Shown piece by piece: positions 48,340 through 53,943 of a DNA stretch of 64,000 nt. How positions within the stretch are numbered: the first letter of the stretch is position 1; every line of letters starts with the position of its first letter. The notes beneath the pieces were generated by a model, which worked only from the letters and a program-made list of their open reading frames with translations, was not told the origin of the DNA and did no database searches. The DNA comes from Raineyella sp. LH-20 (GTDB lineage Bacteria > Actinomycetota > Actinomycetes > Propionibacteriales > Propionibacteriaceae): positions 3,038,001 through 3,102,000 of the forward strand of contig NZ_CP137003.1 of assembly GCF_033110965.1 (NCBI RefSeq). The letters are read 5' to 3'. The translations under genes were made by a program, and so were the position numbers.

Positions 48340-48936
48340 ATGTCCAGCCCAGACGATCGCTCCGCGACCCCATCGGCCACACCCGGGACCGAGTCCGAGA
48401 TCCCGGCCTCGACGTGGCATCTCGGCCGTACGCCGGCAGAGGCCGACCTCGCCAGTCTCGAGTTCGCCCTGATGGCCGCCGGCGCGGCCTTCGAGCGGTA
48501 CGTGACGCAGATCGCCCTGCTGATCGGGGACCCCGAGCTCACGTACAACGAGATCGTCATCCTGCACGTGATCCGGATGTACGACCGCCCCAAGGACGCC
48601 ACCACGATCGCCCGGCTGGTCAATCGTGACGACCTGGCCAACGTCCAGTACACCCTGCGGAAGCTGGTGTCGGTGGGCCTGGTGAAGAAGATCCGATCCG
48701 GCGTCACCGCCCACTACGCGACCACCCCGGCCGGCGCGGACTGGACCGAACGGTACGTCAGCCTGCGCTCCCGGCTGCTGATCGACCTGATGACCCCGAC
48801 CGAGCTCGCCGAGGAGAACCTCGCCGAGATCTCCCGGCGGCTGACCCGTCTCACCGTGCTGTACGAGTCGAGCGCGCGCGGTGCAGGCATCCTCAACCCG
48901 CACCGACTCTTCGACGAGCCGACCGCCGAGCACTGA
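48340..48936 (+). CDS. MarR-family winged-helix regulator
   Basis: A 198-aa protein. After a 30-residue disordered N-terminus, a helix pair (SLEFALMAAGAAFERYVTQIALLIG) leads into a MarR-type winged helix (LTYNEIVILHVIRMYDRPKDATTIARLVNRDDLANVQYTLRKLVSVGLVKKIRSGVTAHYATTPAG). This branch (COG5631-like) is often found beside aromatic-degradation genes. It stands immediately upstream of the Rieske oxygenase operon in the same orientation, separated by a terminator, and is the likely regulator. Confidence 0.85.
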   Translation: MSSPDDRSATPSATPGTESEIPASTWHLGRTPAEADLASLEFALMAAGAAFERYVTQIALLIGDPELTYNEIVILHVIRMYDRPKDATTIARLVNRDDLANVQYTLRKLVSVGLVKKIRSGVTAHYATTPAGADWTERYVSLRSRLLIDLMTPTELAEENLAEISRRLTRLTVLYESSARGAGILNPHRLFDEPTAEH

Positions 48937-49229: not shown

Positions 49230-50420
49230 GTGGCTCTCATCGAATCTGCGATCGGCAACTCAGGGAAGGTCGCACGACAGTACGCCCCGTACGTCCAGGC
49301 CGACTGGGGCTTCGCGAACCACTGGTACCCGGCCTGCTTCAGCGACGAGGTCGCTGTCAACGGAGTCATCGGGGTCACCATCGGCGGTCACGACATCGCC
49401 GTCACCCGTGACGAGGACGGCGTCGTCCACGCAATCGCCGACCGGTGCCTGCACCGCGGCGTGAAGCTGTCCGCCAAGCCGATGTGCTTCGCGAACAAGA
49501 CGGTCACCTGCTGGTACCACGGCTACACCTACAACGCCGAGAACGGCAACCTGGACACCATCGTCGGCTCCCCCGACGACCACCTGATCAACACCGTCGG
49601 CGTCCGTACGTATCCCTCCGAGGAACTCGCCGGCCTGATCTTCGTCTTCGTCGGCGACGACGACTACGGCACTCCGCCACCGCTCGACTCCGACCTGCCG
49701 ATGAAGGTGACCGACAAGGCGACGCCGCACTTCCGCGACGAGAAGATCGTCACCCGCGGCATCCGCCGCAAGCTCTACGGTAACTGGCGGCTGGCCGCCG
49801 AGAACGGACTCGATCCGGGCCACCTGCTGGTCCACTGGGACAACCAGATCGTCGTGGCCCTCGACCGGGCGATGCCGCTGGGCATGAAGGCACTGAAGGA
49901 CGACGCCACCGAGTTCGTCGACATCGAGGGCGGCCCCAAGGGCGTGATGAACCGCTACGACCTGCCCGAGAACTACCAGCCGGTCTTCGAGAACCCGATG
50001 GTCGACATCAAGGCACGTGGCACCACCATGTACGAGCCGTTCCGGGTCAGCTGCTGGCTGCCGGGCATCCTGATGGTCGAGAACTGGCCGATCCCGGGGA
50101 TCACCCAGTACGAGTTCTACGTCCCGATCGACGATCACCACCACATGTACTTCGAGGTGATCGCCGACCGTGCCAGCACGCCGGAGGAGGAGAAGGAGTT
50201 CGCGTTCAAGTACGAGAACTTCTACAAGCCGCTGGGCCTGCTCAACTTCAACAACAACGACATCTTCGCCCGTGAGGCCACCGAGGAGCACTACGAGCGC
50301 TTCGACGGCTGGAACAACGAGGTCCTCTCCAACATGGACTTCTCGGTGGTGGCCTGGCGCAAGCAGGCGGCCAAGCACGGGCGTGGCTTCTTCCAGTCGC
50401 CCTTCGTCGACGAGGACTGA
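49230..50420 (+). CDS. Rieske oxygenase terminal component, carbazole-dioxygenase-like
   Basis: A 396-aa terminal oxygenase. The Rieske [2Fe-2S] ligands are C73-x-H75 (DRCLHRGVKLS) and C94-x2-H97 (TCWYHGYTY). The mononuclear iron site is NWRLAAENGLDPGHLLVH (H198, H202), with the Asp in NFNNNDIFARE. Long stretches such as WLPGILMVENWPIPGITQYEFYVPIDDHHHMYFEVI resemble CarAa, the homotrimeric carbazole 1,9a-dioxygenase, rather than alpha-beta hexamers, and no beta-subunit gene follows. It would hydroxylate an aromatic ring or demethylate. The GTG start has AAGGAGA upstream. It heads a six-gene operon; the substrate is not known. Confidence 0.9.
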   Translation: MALIESAIGNSGKVARQYAPYVQADWGFANHWYPACFSDEVAVNGVIGVTIGGHDIAVTRDEDGVVHAIADRCLHRGVKLSAKPMCFANKTVTCWYHGYTYNAENGNLDTIVGSPDDHLINTVGVRTYPSEELAGLIFVFVGDDDYGTPPPLDSDLPMKVTDKATPHFRDEKIVTRGIRRKLYGNWRLAAENGLDPGHLLVHWDNQIVVALDRAMPLGMKALKDDATEFVDIEGGPKGVMNRYDLPENYQPVFENPMVDIKARGTTMYEPFRVSCWLPGILMVENWPIPGITQYEFYVPIDDHHHMYFEVIADRASTPEEEKEFAFKYENFYKPLGLLNFNNNDIFAREATEEHYERFDGWNNEVLSNMDFSVVAWRKQAAKHGRGFFQSPFVDED

Positions 50421-50435
50421 GAGGAGCCGATTCCG

Positions 50436-51494
50436 ATGACGATCGTGGAGGGCACGGAGATGACCGTGCCGCAGACAGCATCGCGTCACATCGCCCTGCG
50501 ATTCACCGACGGGCAGGTGCGGGAATTCGACGCGGATCCTGGGGAGACTCTCCTCGCCGCGGCCAGACGGGCCGGCCACAGGCTGGTCAGCCAGTGCACC
50601 GTCGGCACCTGCGGCACCTGTGTCGGCACCCTGGTCGACGGCGCAGGCGAGATGCCGTCCGACCGGATCAGTACGCTGTCGGCGGACGAGCTGGCCGCCG
50701 GCCAACGCCTGCTGTGTCAGACCCGTGCCCTCTGCGATTCGTCGTTCGACCTGGACTATCCCGCCACTCTTCTGGAGGCGCATCCGCCGGTCGGCTTCCG
50801 GGCTCGGATCACCCGCCTGACCTGGGTCGCCGACACCGTCGTCGAGCTCGAACTGAAGGTGCCCAAGGCGATCAAGTTCGGCTTCACCGCCGGGCAGTAC
50901 TGCCGTATCCAGGTGCCGGGCACCGATGAGTGGCGCAGCTACTCCATCGCCTCCGGGGAACATGAACGGTTCCGGCTCACCTTCCTGATCCGCATCCTGC
51001 CCTCGGGCGTGATGTCCGACTTCCTCCGGGACGCCGCGCGGACCGGGCAGTCCCTCGAGGTGGAGGGCCCGCTGGGCGGGTTCGTCCTGGAACCCGCTCC
51101 CCGGCCCACCGTTCTGATCGCCGGCGGCACCGGGCTGGCCCCGATGCTGTCGATGCTGGACCGGCTACGGACGGTCCAGCCGACCCCGCCGATCCTGCTC
51201 CTCTTCGGCTGCAACCGACCGGCCGAGCTGTTCCACGAGGACGAGCTGGCCGCCAGGATCAGCCTGATGCCGACGCTCGAGGTGCGTACGGTCCTGATGG
51301 ACAACGCAGGCCGCGACGACCTGCCGGCCGGCACCCCGCTGTCGGTGCTGCGGGCCGACGACGTGGCGCCGGACACCGTCAGCTACCTGTGCGGTCCCCC
51401 GCCGATGATCCGGGCCGCCGAGGAACAGCTCGGCGCTCTCGGACTGCCCGCCCACGACATCCGGGCCGAGCAGTTCGTGCCGAGCGAGAACTGA
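50436..51494 (+). CDS. oxygenase reductase, ferredoxin-FAD-NAD fusion
   Basis: A 352-aa electron-transfer component (BenC/class IB-like). The N-terminal plant-type [2Fe-2S] ferredoxin has CTVGTCGTC and a fourth Cys in LLCQTRALC. Next come a flavin domain (WRSYSIAS, LPSGVMSDFL) and an NAD domain (VLIAGGTGLAPMLSML, YLCGPPPMI). It passes electrons from NADH directly to the Rieske oxygenase encoded 15 bp upstream, so a separate ferredoxin is unnecessary. GAGGAG precedes the ATG; a second ATG eight codons in is possible. Confidence 0.93.
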   Translation: MTIVEGTEMTVPQTASRHIALRFTDGQVREFDADPGETLLAAARRAGHRLVSQCTVGTCGTCVGTLVDGAGEMPSDRISTLSADELAAGQRLLCQTRALCDSSFDLDYPATLLEAHPPVGFRARITRLTWVADTVVELELKVPKAIKFGFTAGQYCRIQVPGTDEWRSYSIASGEHERFRLTFLIRILPSGVMSDFLRDAARTGQSLEVEGPLGGFVLEPAPRPTVLIAGGTGLAPMLSMLDRLRTVQPTPPILLLFGCNRPAELFHEDELAARISLMPTLEVRTVLMDNAGRDDLPAGTPLSVLRADDVAPDTVSYLCGPPPMIRAAEEQLGALGLPAHDIRAEQFVPSEN

Positions 51495-52852
51495 TGGGGC
51501 GCCCGATGCGTGTCACCACCCAGCCGCTGCCCCTCGACCCGGAGCGTCGCGCGATGTACGACGCGCTGGTCGCCCACCTCGACGCCGACCGGATGCGGGA
51601 TCTGCTGGTCCGGCTGGTCGACATCCACAGCCCGACCGGCGCCGAGCGCGCCGCCTCGGAGTTCATGGCCGGCCACCTGCGCGACGAGGTCGGCATCGAG
51701 GCCGAGTACATGCCGATCTCGGAGGCGACCGGCAACGTCCACGGCATCCTGCCGGGCCGGGGCGACGGCGCCAATCTGCTCCTCTACTGCCCGATCGACA
51801 CCCACATCGAGCCCGAGCTCGACGTCCCGGCGATCGGCCCGTACGCCCGGGCCGACATGCTCCCCACCGCCCGGGTCCAGGACGGCCTGGTGGTCGGCCT
51901 GGGGGCGTCCAACCCCAAGGTGATGGTGGCCGGCCTGACCGAAGCCGTCCACGCGATCCGCGACGCCGGGCTGGACTTCCTCGGCGACCTCACCATCGGC
52001 TTCGCCGGCGGCGGCATGCCGTGGCTCAACTCCCGGCGGGACCACGTCGGGATGAGCACCGGGGTCTACCAGCTGCTGATGCGTGGCCTCTATCCGGACT
52101 ACTGCCTGCTGCTCAAGCCGCGCCCCGGCGTCTATCCCGAAGAGCCGGGAATGGCGTGGATCAAGGTTTCCGTCCGCGGCACCTTCGGCTACGCCGGCAT
52201 CACCCGGGGCACTCCGGGCTTCCGTTCCTCCATCGTCCCGGCCGCCACGGTGATCGAGGAGCTCGAGGCGTGGCTGCCGCGCTACACCGCCGCCAACACG
52301 TACGGCACCGTGCTGCCGGAGGCCTGGATCGCCGCGGTCCGCGCCGGCGATCCCGACAAGCCGGCCTTCCCGTCGGCCACCACCGAGATCTTCCTCGACC
52401 TGCGGATCAATCCCCGTACGTCACCGGCTGACGTCCGCGCCCAGTTCGCACTGTTCGTCGCGGGCCTGCGGGCGCGCCACCCGGAGATCGAGCTGGACTG
52501 GACGATGTACGGCAGCCTGCCCGGCGGGCGCACCGACGGCGACAACTGGATCGTCCAGTCCGCCCAGCGCGGCTGGGAGCAGGTGTCGGGTGAGCCCTAC
52601 ACCGAGACGCCCTACCAAGCCGGACAGACCGACGGCGCGATGATCCGTACGCTCGGCGTCCCGACCGCCCGGGTCGGCTACCCGTGGCCGCCGGCCACCG
52701 CACCGGCCGACCTCAACGAGGGCCTGGGCGGCATGGGCGTCGCCTCGGTCGAGGACGTCCTGATCGGTGTGCGGAGCATCGCGTACGCGATCGTCGACAC
52801 GCTCACCCGGACCCGGGCCGACCTCGGCCTGGCCGGCGACACGAAGGAATGA
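51494..52852 (+). CDS. M20-peptidase-fold protein lacking canonical metal ligands
   Basis: The 452-aa protein aligns along its whole length with M20/ArgE/DapE hydrolases: an N-terminal RLVDIHSPTGAE, a lid domain near 225-330, and YQAGQTDGAMIRTLGVPTARVG near the end. However, the zinc-binding signatures are changed. GHxD reads CPID, GATDMKGG reads GASNPKVM, the catalytic EE reads GGGMP, and the final His motif reads LNEGLGGMG. It may therefore be a non-metal hydrolase, a different enzyme on this scaffold, or a binding protein. It starts on the reductase stop codon and overlaps the next gene's upstream ATG. Its place before a ring-cleavage dioxygenase suggests a role in the pathway, possibly hydrolysis. 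Confidence 0.75.
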   Translation: MGRPMRVTTQPLPLDPERRAMYDALVAHLDADRMRDLLVRLVDIHSPTGAERAASEFMAGHLRDEVGIEAEYMPISEATGNVHGILPGRGDGANLLLYCPIDTHIEPELDVPAIGPYARADMLPTARVQDGLVVGLGASNPKVMVAGLTEAVHAIRDAGLDFLGDLTIGFAGGGMPWLNSRRDHVGMSTGVYQLLMRGLYPDYCLLLKPRPGVYPEEPGMAWIKVSVRGTFGYAGITRGTPGFRSSIVPAATVIEELEAWLPRYTAANTYGTVLPEAWIAAVRAGDPDKPAFPSATTEIFLDLRINPRTSPADVRAQFALFVAGLRARHPEIELDWTMYGSLPGGRTDGDNWIVQSAQRGWEQVSGEPYTETPYQAGQTDGAMIRTLGVPTARVGYPWPPATAPADLNEGLGGMGVASVEDVLIGVRSIAYAIVDTLTRTRADLGLAGDTKE

Positions 52853-52854
52853 CC

Positions 52855-53943
52855 ATGGCAGACGACCAGACGGTGCCCGACGAACACCAAGCGCCGGACG
52901 AACACCAAGCGCCCGGCGGACAGCAGGCGCCGGACCGCTCCGACCTGCTGCTCGACTCCCTCGGATATGTCGGGATCTCGTCCGACCGGCTCGACGACTG
53001 GACCACCTTCGGTCACGACGTCGCCGGCATGCAGGTGGTCGACTCGACCCGGCACGGCCGGTCGCTGCGGATGGACAGCCGCGCGCAGCGGTTCCTGATC
53101 AGCGACGACGGCGGCCGCGGCTACTTCGGGTTCGAGGTGTCCGACGCGGCGGCGCTGGCCCGGGTCGGCGAGCGCCTCGACCTGCGCAGGGTGCGGCACA
53201 CGGCGATGGACCGCCCGACCAGGGAGCACCGCCGGGTGACCGACGGCCTGTGGTGCCTCGACCCGGACGGCAACCGGATCGAGGTCTTCCACGGCCCCGA
53301 GCTGGCCGACCGGCCGTTCTCCCCCGGTCGTACGATCGGCGGCTTCCGCACCGGCGTGCTCGGCCTGGGGCATGCGGTGCTGCTCACCGCCGACCCGCGG
53401 GCGCTGATCGACTTCTACCAGGGTGTCCTCGGCTTCCGGCTGTCGGACTTCCTGTTCAGTCCGTTCGAGGCGCACTTCTTCCACCTCAACCCGCGCCACC
53501 ACAGCCTGGCGATCGTCCGCTCGGACGGTCCCGGCATCCACCACATCATGGTCGAGCTGGCCCGGCTGGACGACGTCGGCGCGGGCTTCGACCTGGCCGA
53601 GAGTCGCGAGGACGGCATCCGGGTGTCGCTCGGGCGGCACTCGAACGACCACATGCTCTCCTTCTACGCCCGTACGCCGTCCCCGTTCATGCTCGAGTAC
53701 GGCTGGGGCGGGCGCTCCATCGACGTCGACCGGTGGGCGCCGTACGAGCTGACCGAGGGCCCGAGTCTCTGGGGCCACGAACGGTCCTGGCTGTCCCCCG
53801 AGCAACGCCACACCGCACGGCAGCTGCGGATCGCCGCCTCGGCCGAGGGCCGCAGCTACCCCGTCCACGTCCGGGAGGGCAGCTACGACGTGGTGCCCCC
53901 GGAGAGCTGGATCCCCGCCACCCGACGGCCGTACGTCGGCTGA
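52855..53943 (+). CDS. extradiol (BphC-type) ring-cleavage dioxygenase
   Basis: A 362-aa two-domain VOC enzyme that opens catechols next to the hydroxyls with Fe(II) and oxygen. The catalytic domain shows H173 (GLGHAVLL), the active-site HH in NPRHHSLAI, GIHHIMVE with the second iron His, Y271 in HMLSFYARTP and E281 in PFMLEYGWGG, with the family spacing of ten between Tyr and Glu. The first 30 residues are a disordered tail with a DEHQAP duplication. AAGGA is spaced for this ATG; one two codons upstream is also possible. It acts on the product of the Rieske oxygenase, directly or after rearomatisation. Confidence 0.9.
   Translation: MADDQTVPDEHQAPDEHQAPGGQQAPDRSDLLLDSLGYVGISSDRLDDWTTFGHDVAGMQVVDSTRHGRSLRMDSRAQRFLISDDGGRGYFGFEVSDAAALARVGERLDLRRVRHTAMDRPTREHRRVTDGLWCLDPDGNRIEVFHGPELADRPFSPGRTIGGFRTGVLGLGHAVLLTADPRALIDFYQGVLGFRLSDFLFSPFEAHFFHLNPRHHSLAIVRSDGPGIHHIMVELARLDDVGAGFDLAESREDGIRVSLGRHSNDHMLSFYARTPSPFMLEYGWGGRSIDVDRWAPYELTEGPSLWGHERSWLSPEQRHTARQLRIAASAEGRSYPVHVREGSYDVVPPESWIPATRRPYVG
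52879..52914 (+). repeat. 18-bp coding tandem repeat
   Basis: GACGAACACCAAGCGCCS occurs twice in frame, giving DEHQAP-DEHQAP in the dioxygenase N-terminal tail, with a third degenerate unit (GGQQAP) after it. Confidence 0.85.

Follow-up and report, generated by a model that had tools for sequence, protein, structure and literature searches.

Within a 64,000-nucleotide stretch of the Raineyella sp. LH-20 genome (contig NZ_CP137003.1, positions 3,038,001 to 3,102,000; hereafter the window, in whose numbering its features are given), an open frame of 452 amino acids at 51494..52852 on the forward strand, whose existence and position we confirmed, encodes an M20-like protein without the metal ligands of that fold. 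We read this protein as a metal-free relative of the 5-nitroanthranilate (5NAA) aminohydrolase branch of the M20 fold, with a role in breaking down 2-quinolone-type lactams. We give this reading a probability of about 0.4, and within it we infer that the protein is catalytic, which step it takes, and by what mechanism.

Predicted fold and replaced active-site positions

The initial annotation of the window held that the M20 architecture was intact, and the structure prediction bears this out. An AlphaFold2 model made from an input alignment of 49 sequences (including four 5NAA-like ones) had a predicted local distance difference test score (pLDDT) of 95.2 and a predicted template modeling score (pTM) of 0.93. 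Foldseek found 221 matches to it in the PDB at E<=0.001; the 50 listed were mostly titled M20-type enzymes, and among the matches listed the first 12 rows were all chains of 5NAA aminohydrolase. VIA-align of the model with 5NAA aminohydrolase gave a Z score of 40.9 (root-mean-square deviation 2.3 over 405 residues), while the best other entry reached 34.2. 5NAA aminohydrolase was also closest in the sequence search (E 2e-17), and a profile comparison with 5NAA-like proteins gave 100% probability (E 2e-47). By the model, the window protein has the M20 fold. Family scores place such genes between families, with the window protein barely over the Pfam Peptidase_M20 gathering cut-off (24.9 vs. 24.6 bits) and far under that of NCBIfam ArgE/DapE (40.7 bits, cut-off 217.6), and they are easily filed as metallopeptidases, although their residues speak against that.

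To map positions, we aligned the window protein with 5NAA-aminohydrolase-like proteins and with three canonical M20 proteins from the window's genome. We take the metal ligands of M20 enzymes to be His, Asp, Glu, Glu/Asp, and His, with a catalytic Glu in the Glu-Glu pair and a further His in the lid domain. The window protein has the two-domain M20 fold and the TD and R landmarks in common with the ArgE/DapE/CPG2-type metallohydrolases, but differs from them at all five ligand positions, at the catalytic Glu, and at the lid His, the ligand series becoming Pro, Asn, Gly/Met, Lys, and none. The His of GHxD is replaced by P100 within C99-P100-I101-D102 (51788..51799, on the plus strand like all features of the locus), and the bridging Asp by N140 within N140-P141-K142 (51911..51919). 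The pair of catalytic Glu and ligand Glu is G174/M175 within G173-G174-M175-P176 (52010..52021), the metal-ligand Glu of the "gEPt" motif is K208 (52115..52117), and the lid His is Y233 (52190..52192). The late His motif falls in a GLGGMG region with no His (G410-L-G-G-M414, 52721..52735). Retained are D102, which is the Asp of GHxD, K142, which is the Lys of the D.K motif, and the G.TD motif of the catalytic domain (G377-Q-T-D380, 52622..52633). Thus, the claim that all metal signatures had been replaced holds for the five ligand positions and the catalytic Glu but not for the Asp of GHxD.

5NAA aminohydrolase (PDB 5k8m, 5k8n, 5k8o, and 5k8p) resembles the window protein in its whole M20 fold, in an Asn at the bridging Asp, and in its work in aromatic catabolism, where it is reported to remove an aromatic amino group by hydrolysis (PMC10306065, in excerpt). 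The two differ at the remaining sites, because 5NAA-type sequences keep H100, E174, E176, and E208 (7/7), where the window protein has Pro, Gly, Pro, and Lys, and they have Asn at the position of R393 (52670..52672). These nearest metal-keeping relatives already are without the bridging Asp, and the late His is also gone in the five of five examined.

Conservation of the altered positions in a subfamily

The initial annotation had proposed a profile search for conservation of the altered motifs, and such a search found them kept. A single-sequence scan of genome contigs with the window protein recovered no relatives, but a scan with a four-sequence alignment gave 203 confirmed relatives, of which the best 80 underlie our counts; the scan is biased in that it used two of the counted motifs, LY[AC]P[IV]D and GLG..NPK, as bait. 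The set counted has 84 members (59 in clade I and 25 in clade II) from Actinomycetota, Pseudomonadota, Myxococcota, and Chloroflexota. P100, D102, T103, N140, K142, G173-G174-M175-P176, K208, W222, G377, T379, D380, R393, G395, and M414 are invariant in all 84. In a 98-row alignment, in which at least six rows duplicate a gene already present (tree distance 0), Y98, D102, T103, N140, K142, D202, K208, W222, Y233, D302, R304, W361, T379, and R393 are invariant, and D380 is found in 97 rows. The remaining row has Glu there; it is a divergent clade II copy (L098, also L151) on a 5.8-kb contig of genome G782.

Whole-protein searches that were blind to the motifs gave 14 subfamily matches beyond the seeds, at least three of which are genes also found in the bait-motif scan, together with seven 5NAA-like proteins. 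Matches came from 8 of 396 genomes in the window's phylum (counting its own genome and five 5NAA-like), 3 of 369 in the class of G396 (counting the seed and two 5NAA-like), 6 of 246 Sphingomonadales and 7 of 245 in the order of Streptomyces (each counting the seed), and one Cupriavidus plasmid. The subfamily residues P, N, P, K, GGMP, K, and R recur in all 14, and all seven 5NAA-like matches have H, E-I-E, E, and N at the corresponding positions.

The ratio of nonsynonymous to synonymous substitution rates (dN/dS) was 0.058 to 0.173 in nine of ten pairs; the tenth (L030/L032) gave 0.446 on very few changes. Because the altered positions are invariant and the low dN/dS speaks for purifying selection, we reject decay or sequencing error as their origin. 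In the tree, one branch (support 99) holds the whole subfamily, divided into clade I (99) and clade II (89), and the 5NAA-like rows stand separate from it (99). The canonical outgroup rows are very long-branched, so the one part of the topology on which we rely is the separation of the subfamily from the 5NAA-like rows. The initial annotation had regarded CPIDTH, GASNPK, GGGMPWLN, and LNEGLGG as specific new motifs rather than decay, and this view stands for their invariant residues, with parts of the motifs being more restricted. Cys99 is private to the window protein (position 99 is Ala in 54, Ser in 4, and Cys in 1 of clade I and Ala in all 25 of clade II), while His104 and the GLGG stretch are fully or almost fully conserved in clade I only, where GLGGM has one G412D exception and from which clade II shares M414 and, mostly, G413. 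As a side observation, two metagenome bins titled Klebsiella pneumoniae carry the operon (L022 and L043); their copies group with sphingomonad and gammaproteobacterial ones, and the bins are probably mislabeled.

The M20-like gene and its partners

In the window, the M20-like gene is the fourth in a run of genes on the same strand. A MarR/winged-helix regulator (48340..48936; Pfam HTH_27, 42.8 bits), homologous to the regulator in related operons, is followed by a Rieske oxygenase of PF11723 (Aromatic_hydrox; 49230..50420), its reductase (50436..51494; Fer2, FAD, and NAD domains, MmoC/BenC-like but under the cut-offs), the M20-like gene, an extradiol ring-cleavage dioxygenase of BphC/HsaC type (52849..53943), a lipocalin-like protein (PF13924; 53961..54398), and an amidase (PF01425; 54413..55798), for which the nearest NCBIfam model is indoleacetamide hydrolase (419.6 bits, cut-off 532). 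The ATG of the M20-like gene overlaps the reductase stop by one base, and the first ATG of the dioxygenase gene (52849) overlaps the M20-like stop by 4 bases.

We compared this arrangement across loci, calling a locus well covered if at least 8 kb was available on both sides (n=52; 33 clade I and 19 clade II); the counts refer to the stretch fetched. A Rieske oxygenase gene is present in 46/52 well-covered loci (28/33 in clade I and 18/19 in clade II), an amidase gene in 32/33 of clade I and 3/19 of clade II, and an extradiol dioxygenase gene of any kind in 22/33 and 19/19. Over all 59 clade I loci, amidase genes number 49 and MarR-like genes 39. With the same queries, control M20 loci had no oxygenase (0/14, namely 0/6 5NAA-like and 0/8 canonical loci of the window's genome) and no dioxygenase (0/6 and 0/8), but amidase homologues lie near two of the eight canonical genes, so the amidase link taken alone is weaker than the oxygenase link. 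The steady partners of the M20-like gene are the oxygenase and, in clade I, the amidase. Two unrelated kinds of dioxygenase occur: the BphC type is encoded in the window and in 31/59 clade I loci, the LigB/MhpB type in 25/25 clade II and two clade I loci. The clade II enzyme is nearest to 2,3-dihydroxyphenylpropionate/2,3-dihydroxycinnamate dioxygenase. Genes for alpha/beta hydrolases are found in 24/59 clade I and 24/25 clade II loci.

Quinolone-type and carbazole-type oxygenases

The solved structure nearest to the window oxygenase is 2-oxo-1,2-dihydroquinoline 8-monooxygenase (1z01; 365 bits and 45% identity, vs. 287 bits for carbazole dioxygenase), and the oxygenase of Paraburkholderia locus L024 matches the same enzyme with 789 bits and 79.4% identity (312 of 393). 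Most proteobacterial clade I members have oxygenases 69–97% identical to that of L024, those of the window, Rhodococcus/Prescottella, and Deltaproteobacteria are 46–48% identical to it, that of L060 37%, and those of clade II about 28–32%. Because the window, L010, and L025 oxygenases have lower identity to the carbazole type (36–39%; 38–39% to the enzyme of pCAR1), by sequence they side with the quinolone type.

Carbazole (car) operons such as those of pCAR1 and pCAR3 have an oxygenase of the same kind, a class III ring-cleavage enzyme, and an alpha/beta hydrolase, with a hydratase in pCAR1, but differ in that the M20-like gene and the amidase were not found in the stretches compared. Seven plasmid records held a carbazole-type oxygenase, and four were compared, since the other three match pCAR1 or pCAR3 in positions and identities; for pCAR3, one side alone could be read because its record begins there. 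None of the four plasmid stretches has an M20-like gene or amidase, although three have ring-cleavage and hydrolase genes. The oxygenase and the M20-like gene were each searched for in the 246 Sphingomonadales genomes. An oxygenase of the 73–79% type occurs in four of them, in every case clustered with the M20-like gene, and none of the three genomes with a carbazole-type oxygenase (53–56% identical to pCAR1 and 36–44% to L024) has the M20-like gene. Overall, the M20-like gene is absent from 7/7 carbazole-type loci, six of which have ring-cleavage and hydrolase genes; in the seventh, S. baderi (L142), the stretch has neither. A search for quinolone-type oxygenases in the order of G396 (300 genomes) matched the seed alone and was uninformative. 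Since it is present with quinolone-type oxygenases and absent from the carbazole-type loci examined, the clade I M20-like protein goes with the lactam pathway, and not with angular attack on carbazole or with ring cleavage in itself.

Proposed role

A route has been described in which 2-hydroxyquinoline is converted to 2,8-dihydroxyquinoline, then to 8-hydroxycoumarin and ammonium, and then to 2,3-dihydroxyphenylpropionate, which undergoes meta-cleavage (PMC9029321, in excerpt); 8-hydroxycoumarin is reported to be reduced by XenA (PMC5519977, in excerpt). In the open PMC literature, we found nothing describing the M20-like subfamily and no gene named for the ammonia-releasing 8-hydroxy-2-quinolone step, the Pseudomonas putida 86 quinoline-cluster paper and the 5NAA-aminohydrolase structure paper lying outside that search. 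Two operon members, the M20-like protein and the amidase, are left for this step. With the operon contrast, what was a vague "unknown hydrolase" becomes a candidate for a single, defined step in N-heterocycle breakdown.

In the scheme that we propose, the Rieske oxygenase would hydroxylate the ring beside the ring nitrogen, judging from the 79% identical solved enzyme, for which we take this position from its name. The amidase and the M20-like protein would then release the lactam nitrogen as ammonia before ring cleavage, the conversion being 8-hydroxy-2-quinolone to 8-hydroxycoumarin or 2,3-dihydroxycinnamate. Hydrolytic C–N cleavage is our first guess because the M20-like protein is related to a hydrolytic aryl deaminase. 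The new hydroxyl, ortho to the nitrogen, could let the C–N carbon react through a keto-imine tautomer, and for this reason acid-base residues could stand in for the metal of 5NAA aminohydrolase. We infer the working residues from their conservation as K208, K142, D102, N140, Y233, D380, and R393, with a clade-specific His (104 or 144). The similarity of the clade II dioxygenase to enzymes for 2,3-dihydroxyphenylpropionate and 2,3-dihydroxycinnamate fits the 8-hydroxycoumarin route, but the clade II substrate is less certain, as its tie to the route would come from this dioxygenase and not from the oxygenase. The substrate of the window's own enzyme set may be a relative of 2-quinolone, because its oxygenase shares only 45% identity with the quinolone enzyme.

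Creatinase is a metal-free C–N hydrolase of a metallopeptidase fold. By analogy, the M20-like protein would be the first metal-free M20-fold hydrolase, with the metal swapped for a lysine-centered pocket and loss of ammonia from hydroxylated 2-quinolones (8-hydroxy-2-quinolone to 8-hydroxycoumarin) as its reaction, although in this specific form we consider the proposal rather unlikely. If the protein is catalytic, a metalloenzyme fold would be seen shifting to metal-free chemistry, with a metal-bearing sister branch, 5NAA aminohydrolase, available for comparison.

Several observations weigh against the proposed role. The amidase of the operon could remove the nitrogen alone. An oxygenase gene is missing from the stretch in 5/33 well-covered clade I loci, and an amidase gene in 16/19 of clade II. 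The quinolone reading is weaker in clade II, where the oxygenase (L088) is distant and scores higher against carbazole dioxygenase (158.7 bits) than against 1z01 (116.4 bits). Two Sphingomonadales genomes, G397 (the seed) and G782 (the 5.8-kb contig), have the M20-like gene with no quinolone-type oxygenase match at threshold. Finally, a residue of 5NAA aminohydrolase that is not a metal ligand, Arg289, which is changed in the trapped-intermediate entry 5k8p, is also not kept and aligns with Ala291 of the window protein.

Alternative explanations

The initial annotation left the choice between a new catalytic role and a chaperone role, and this choice is still the live one. As a non-catalytic partner, the M20-like protein would be a pseudoenzyme acting as chaperone, shuttle, or scaffold, either by binding an intermediate or by keeping the oxygenase, reductase, or amidase together. 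The loss of all metal ligands and the catalytic Glu, the overlap of its gene with those of the reductase and dioxygenase in the window, and the oxygenase being the most constant partner across both clades favor such a role; the invariant polar and charged replacements K208, R393, and Y233 (98/98) suggest ligand chemistry instead, and a nearby oxygenase gene is missing from some loci. We regard it as unlikely, yet as the strongest of the alternatives. An ordinary metalloenzyme with relocated ligands, which the initial annotation had named as the outcome if other His or Asp residues restored the site, is improbable. D102 and D302 are invariant and D380 nearly so, and each clade has its own His near the pocket motifs. 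The His conserved in clade I are H45, H104, and H193 (Gln in the window protein), and clade II conserves H144, H238, H268, and H369 with three Cys; H104 sits just after the D102 motif and H144 just after the K142 motif, so that one could imagine, as an idea only, one pocket served by His from two places. Against relocation, no His or Cys reaches 90% conservation in both clades of the 98-row alignment, and a Lys occupies a metal-ligand Glu position in 84/84 members. Because no His or Cys is common to the whole subfamily, no relocated metal site is apparent in it by conservation.

The protein might instead be a lactone hydrolase, with the amidase removing the nitrogen and the M20-like protein opening the lactone of 8-hydroxycoumarin, or its dihydro form, without a metal. 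The 8-hydroxycoumarin route requires that the lactone be opened ahead of ring cleavage (PMC9029321, in excerpt), and genes of the alcohol-dehydrogenase type, a kind reported to reduce 7-hydroxycoumarin, are frequent neighbors. We find this explanation doubtful, since the alpha/beta hydrolases found in these loci, most of all in clade II, could open a lactone and the sequence gives no pointer to ester over amide. Least probable of all, at the low end of what we would entertain, is action on the meta-cleavage product, for which the initial annotation had proposed an assay. Extradiol dioxygenase genes do accompany the M20-like gene in most well-covered loci, but they are of two unrelated types, 11/33 well-covered clade I loci have the M20-like gene with no dioxygenase gene in the stretch, and the six carbazole-type loci with dioxygenase and hydrolase genes do without the M20-like gene.

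Other neighboring genes

The alcohol-dehydrogenase-type genes belong to families 10 (judged by eye) and 22, which are present in 20/84 and 10/84 loci, respectively (e.g., L054 11327–12331 and L040 4997–6118). An enzyme of this type is reported as a hydroxycoumarin ene-reductase that reduces 7-hydroxycoumarin (PMC7913881, in excerpt), and by analogy the neighboring genes may encode 8-hydroxycoumarin reductases. Subunits of molybdenum hydroxylases, the enzyme type that produces 2-quinolones, are encoded near the M20-like gene in 6/84 loci, which are too few to argue from. Copies in Zoogloea, Aromatoleum, and Oxalobacteraceae (L036, L038, L039, L041, and L062) combine the M20-like gene with an amidase gene, but the stretch, which is short on one side in L036, L039, and L041, shows no Rieske oxygenase. 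Isolates of Thauera reportedly break down 2-hydroxyquinoline when denitrifying (PMC7193041, in excerpt).

Asp/Glu-racemase-like and arylmalonate-decarboxylase/EutA-like genes (families 11 and 20) lie near clade I operons in 19/59 and 11/59 loci (e.g., L035 11417–12196 and L021 12967–13734). The gene for the lipocalin-like PF13924 protein directly adjoins the extradiol dioxygenase gene in three distant operons, those of the window, L035 (6284–6700), and L061 (1745–2179). 5NAA-like M20 genes with the metal residues (L004 1–4101 and L005 1–4122) are flanked, as judged by eye, by luciferase-like (LLM-looking) oxidoreductase and fumarylacetoacetate-hydrolase-looking genes, forming a recurring trio.

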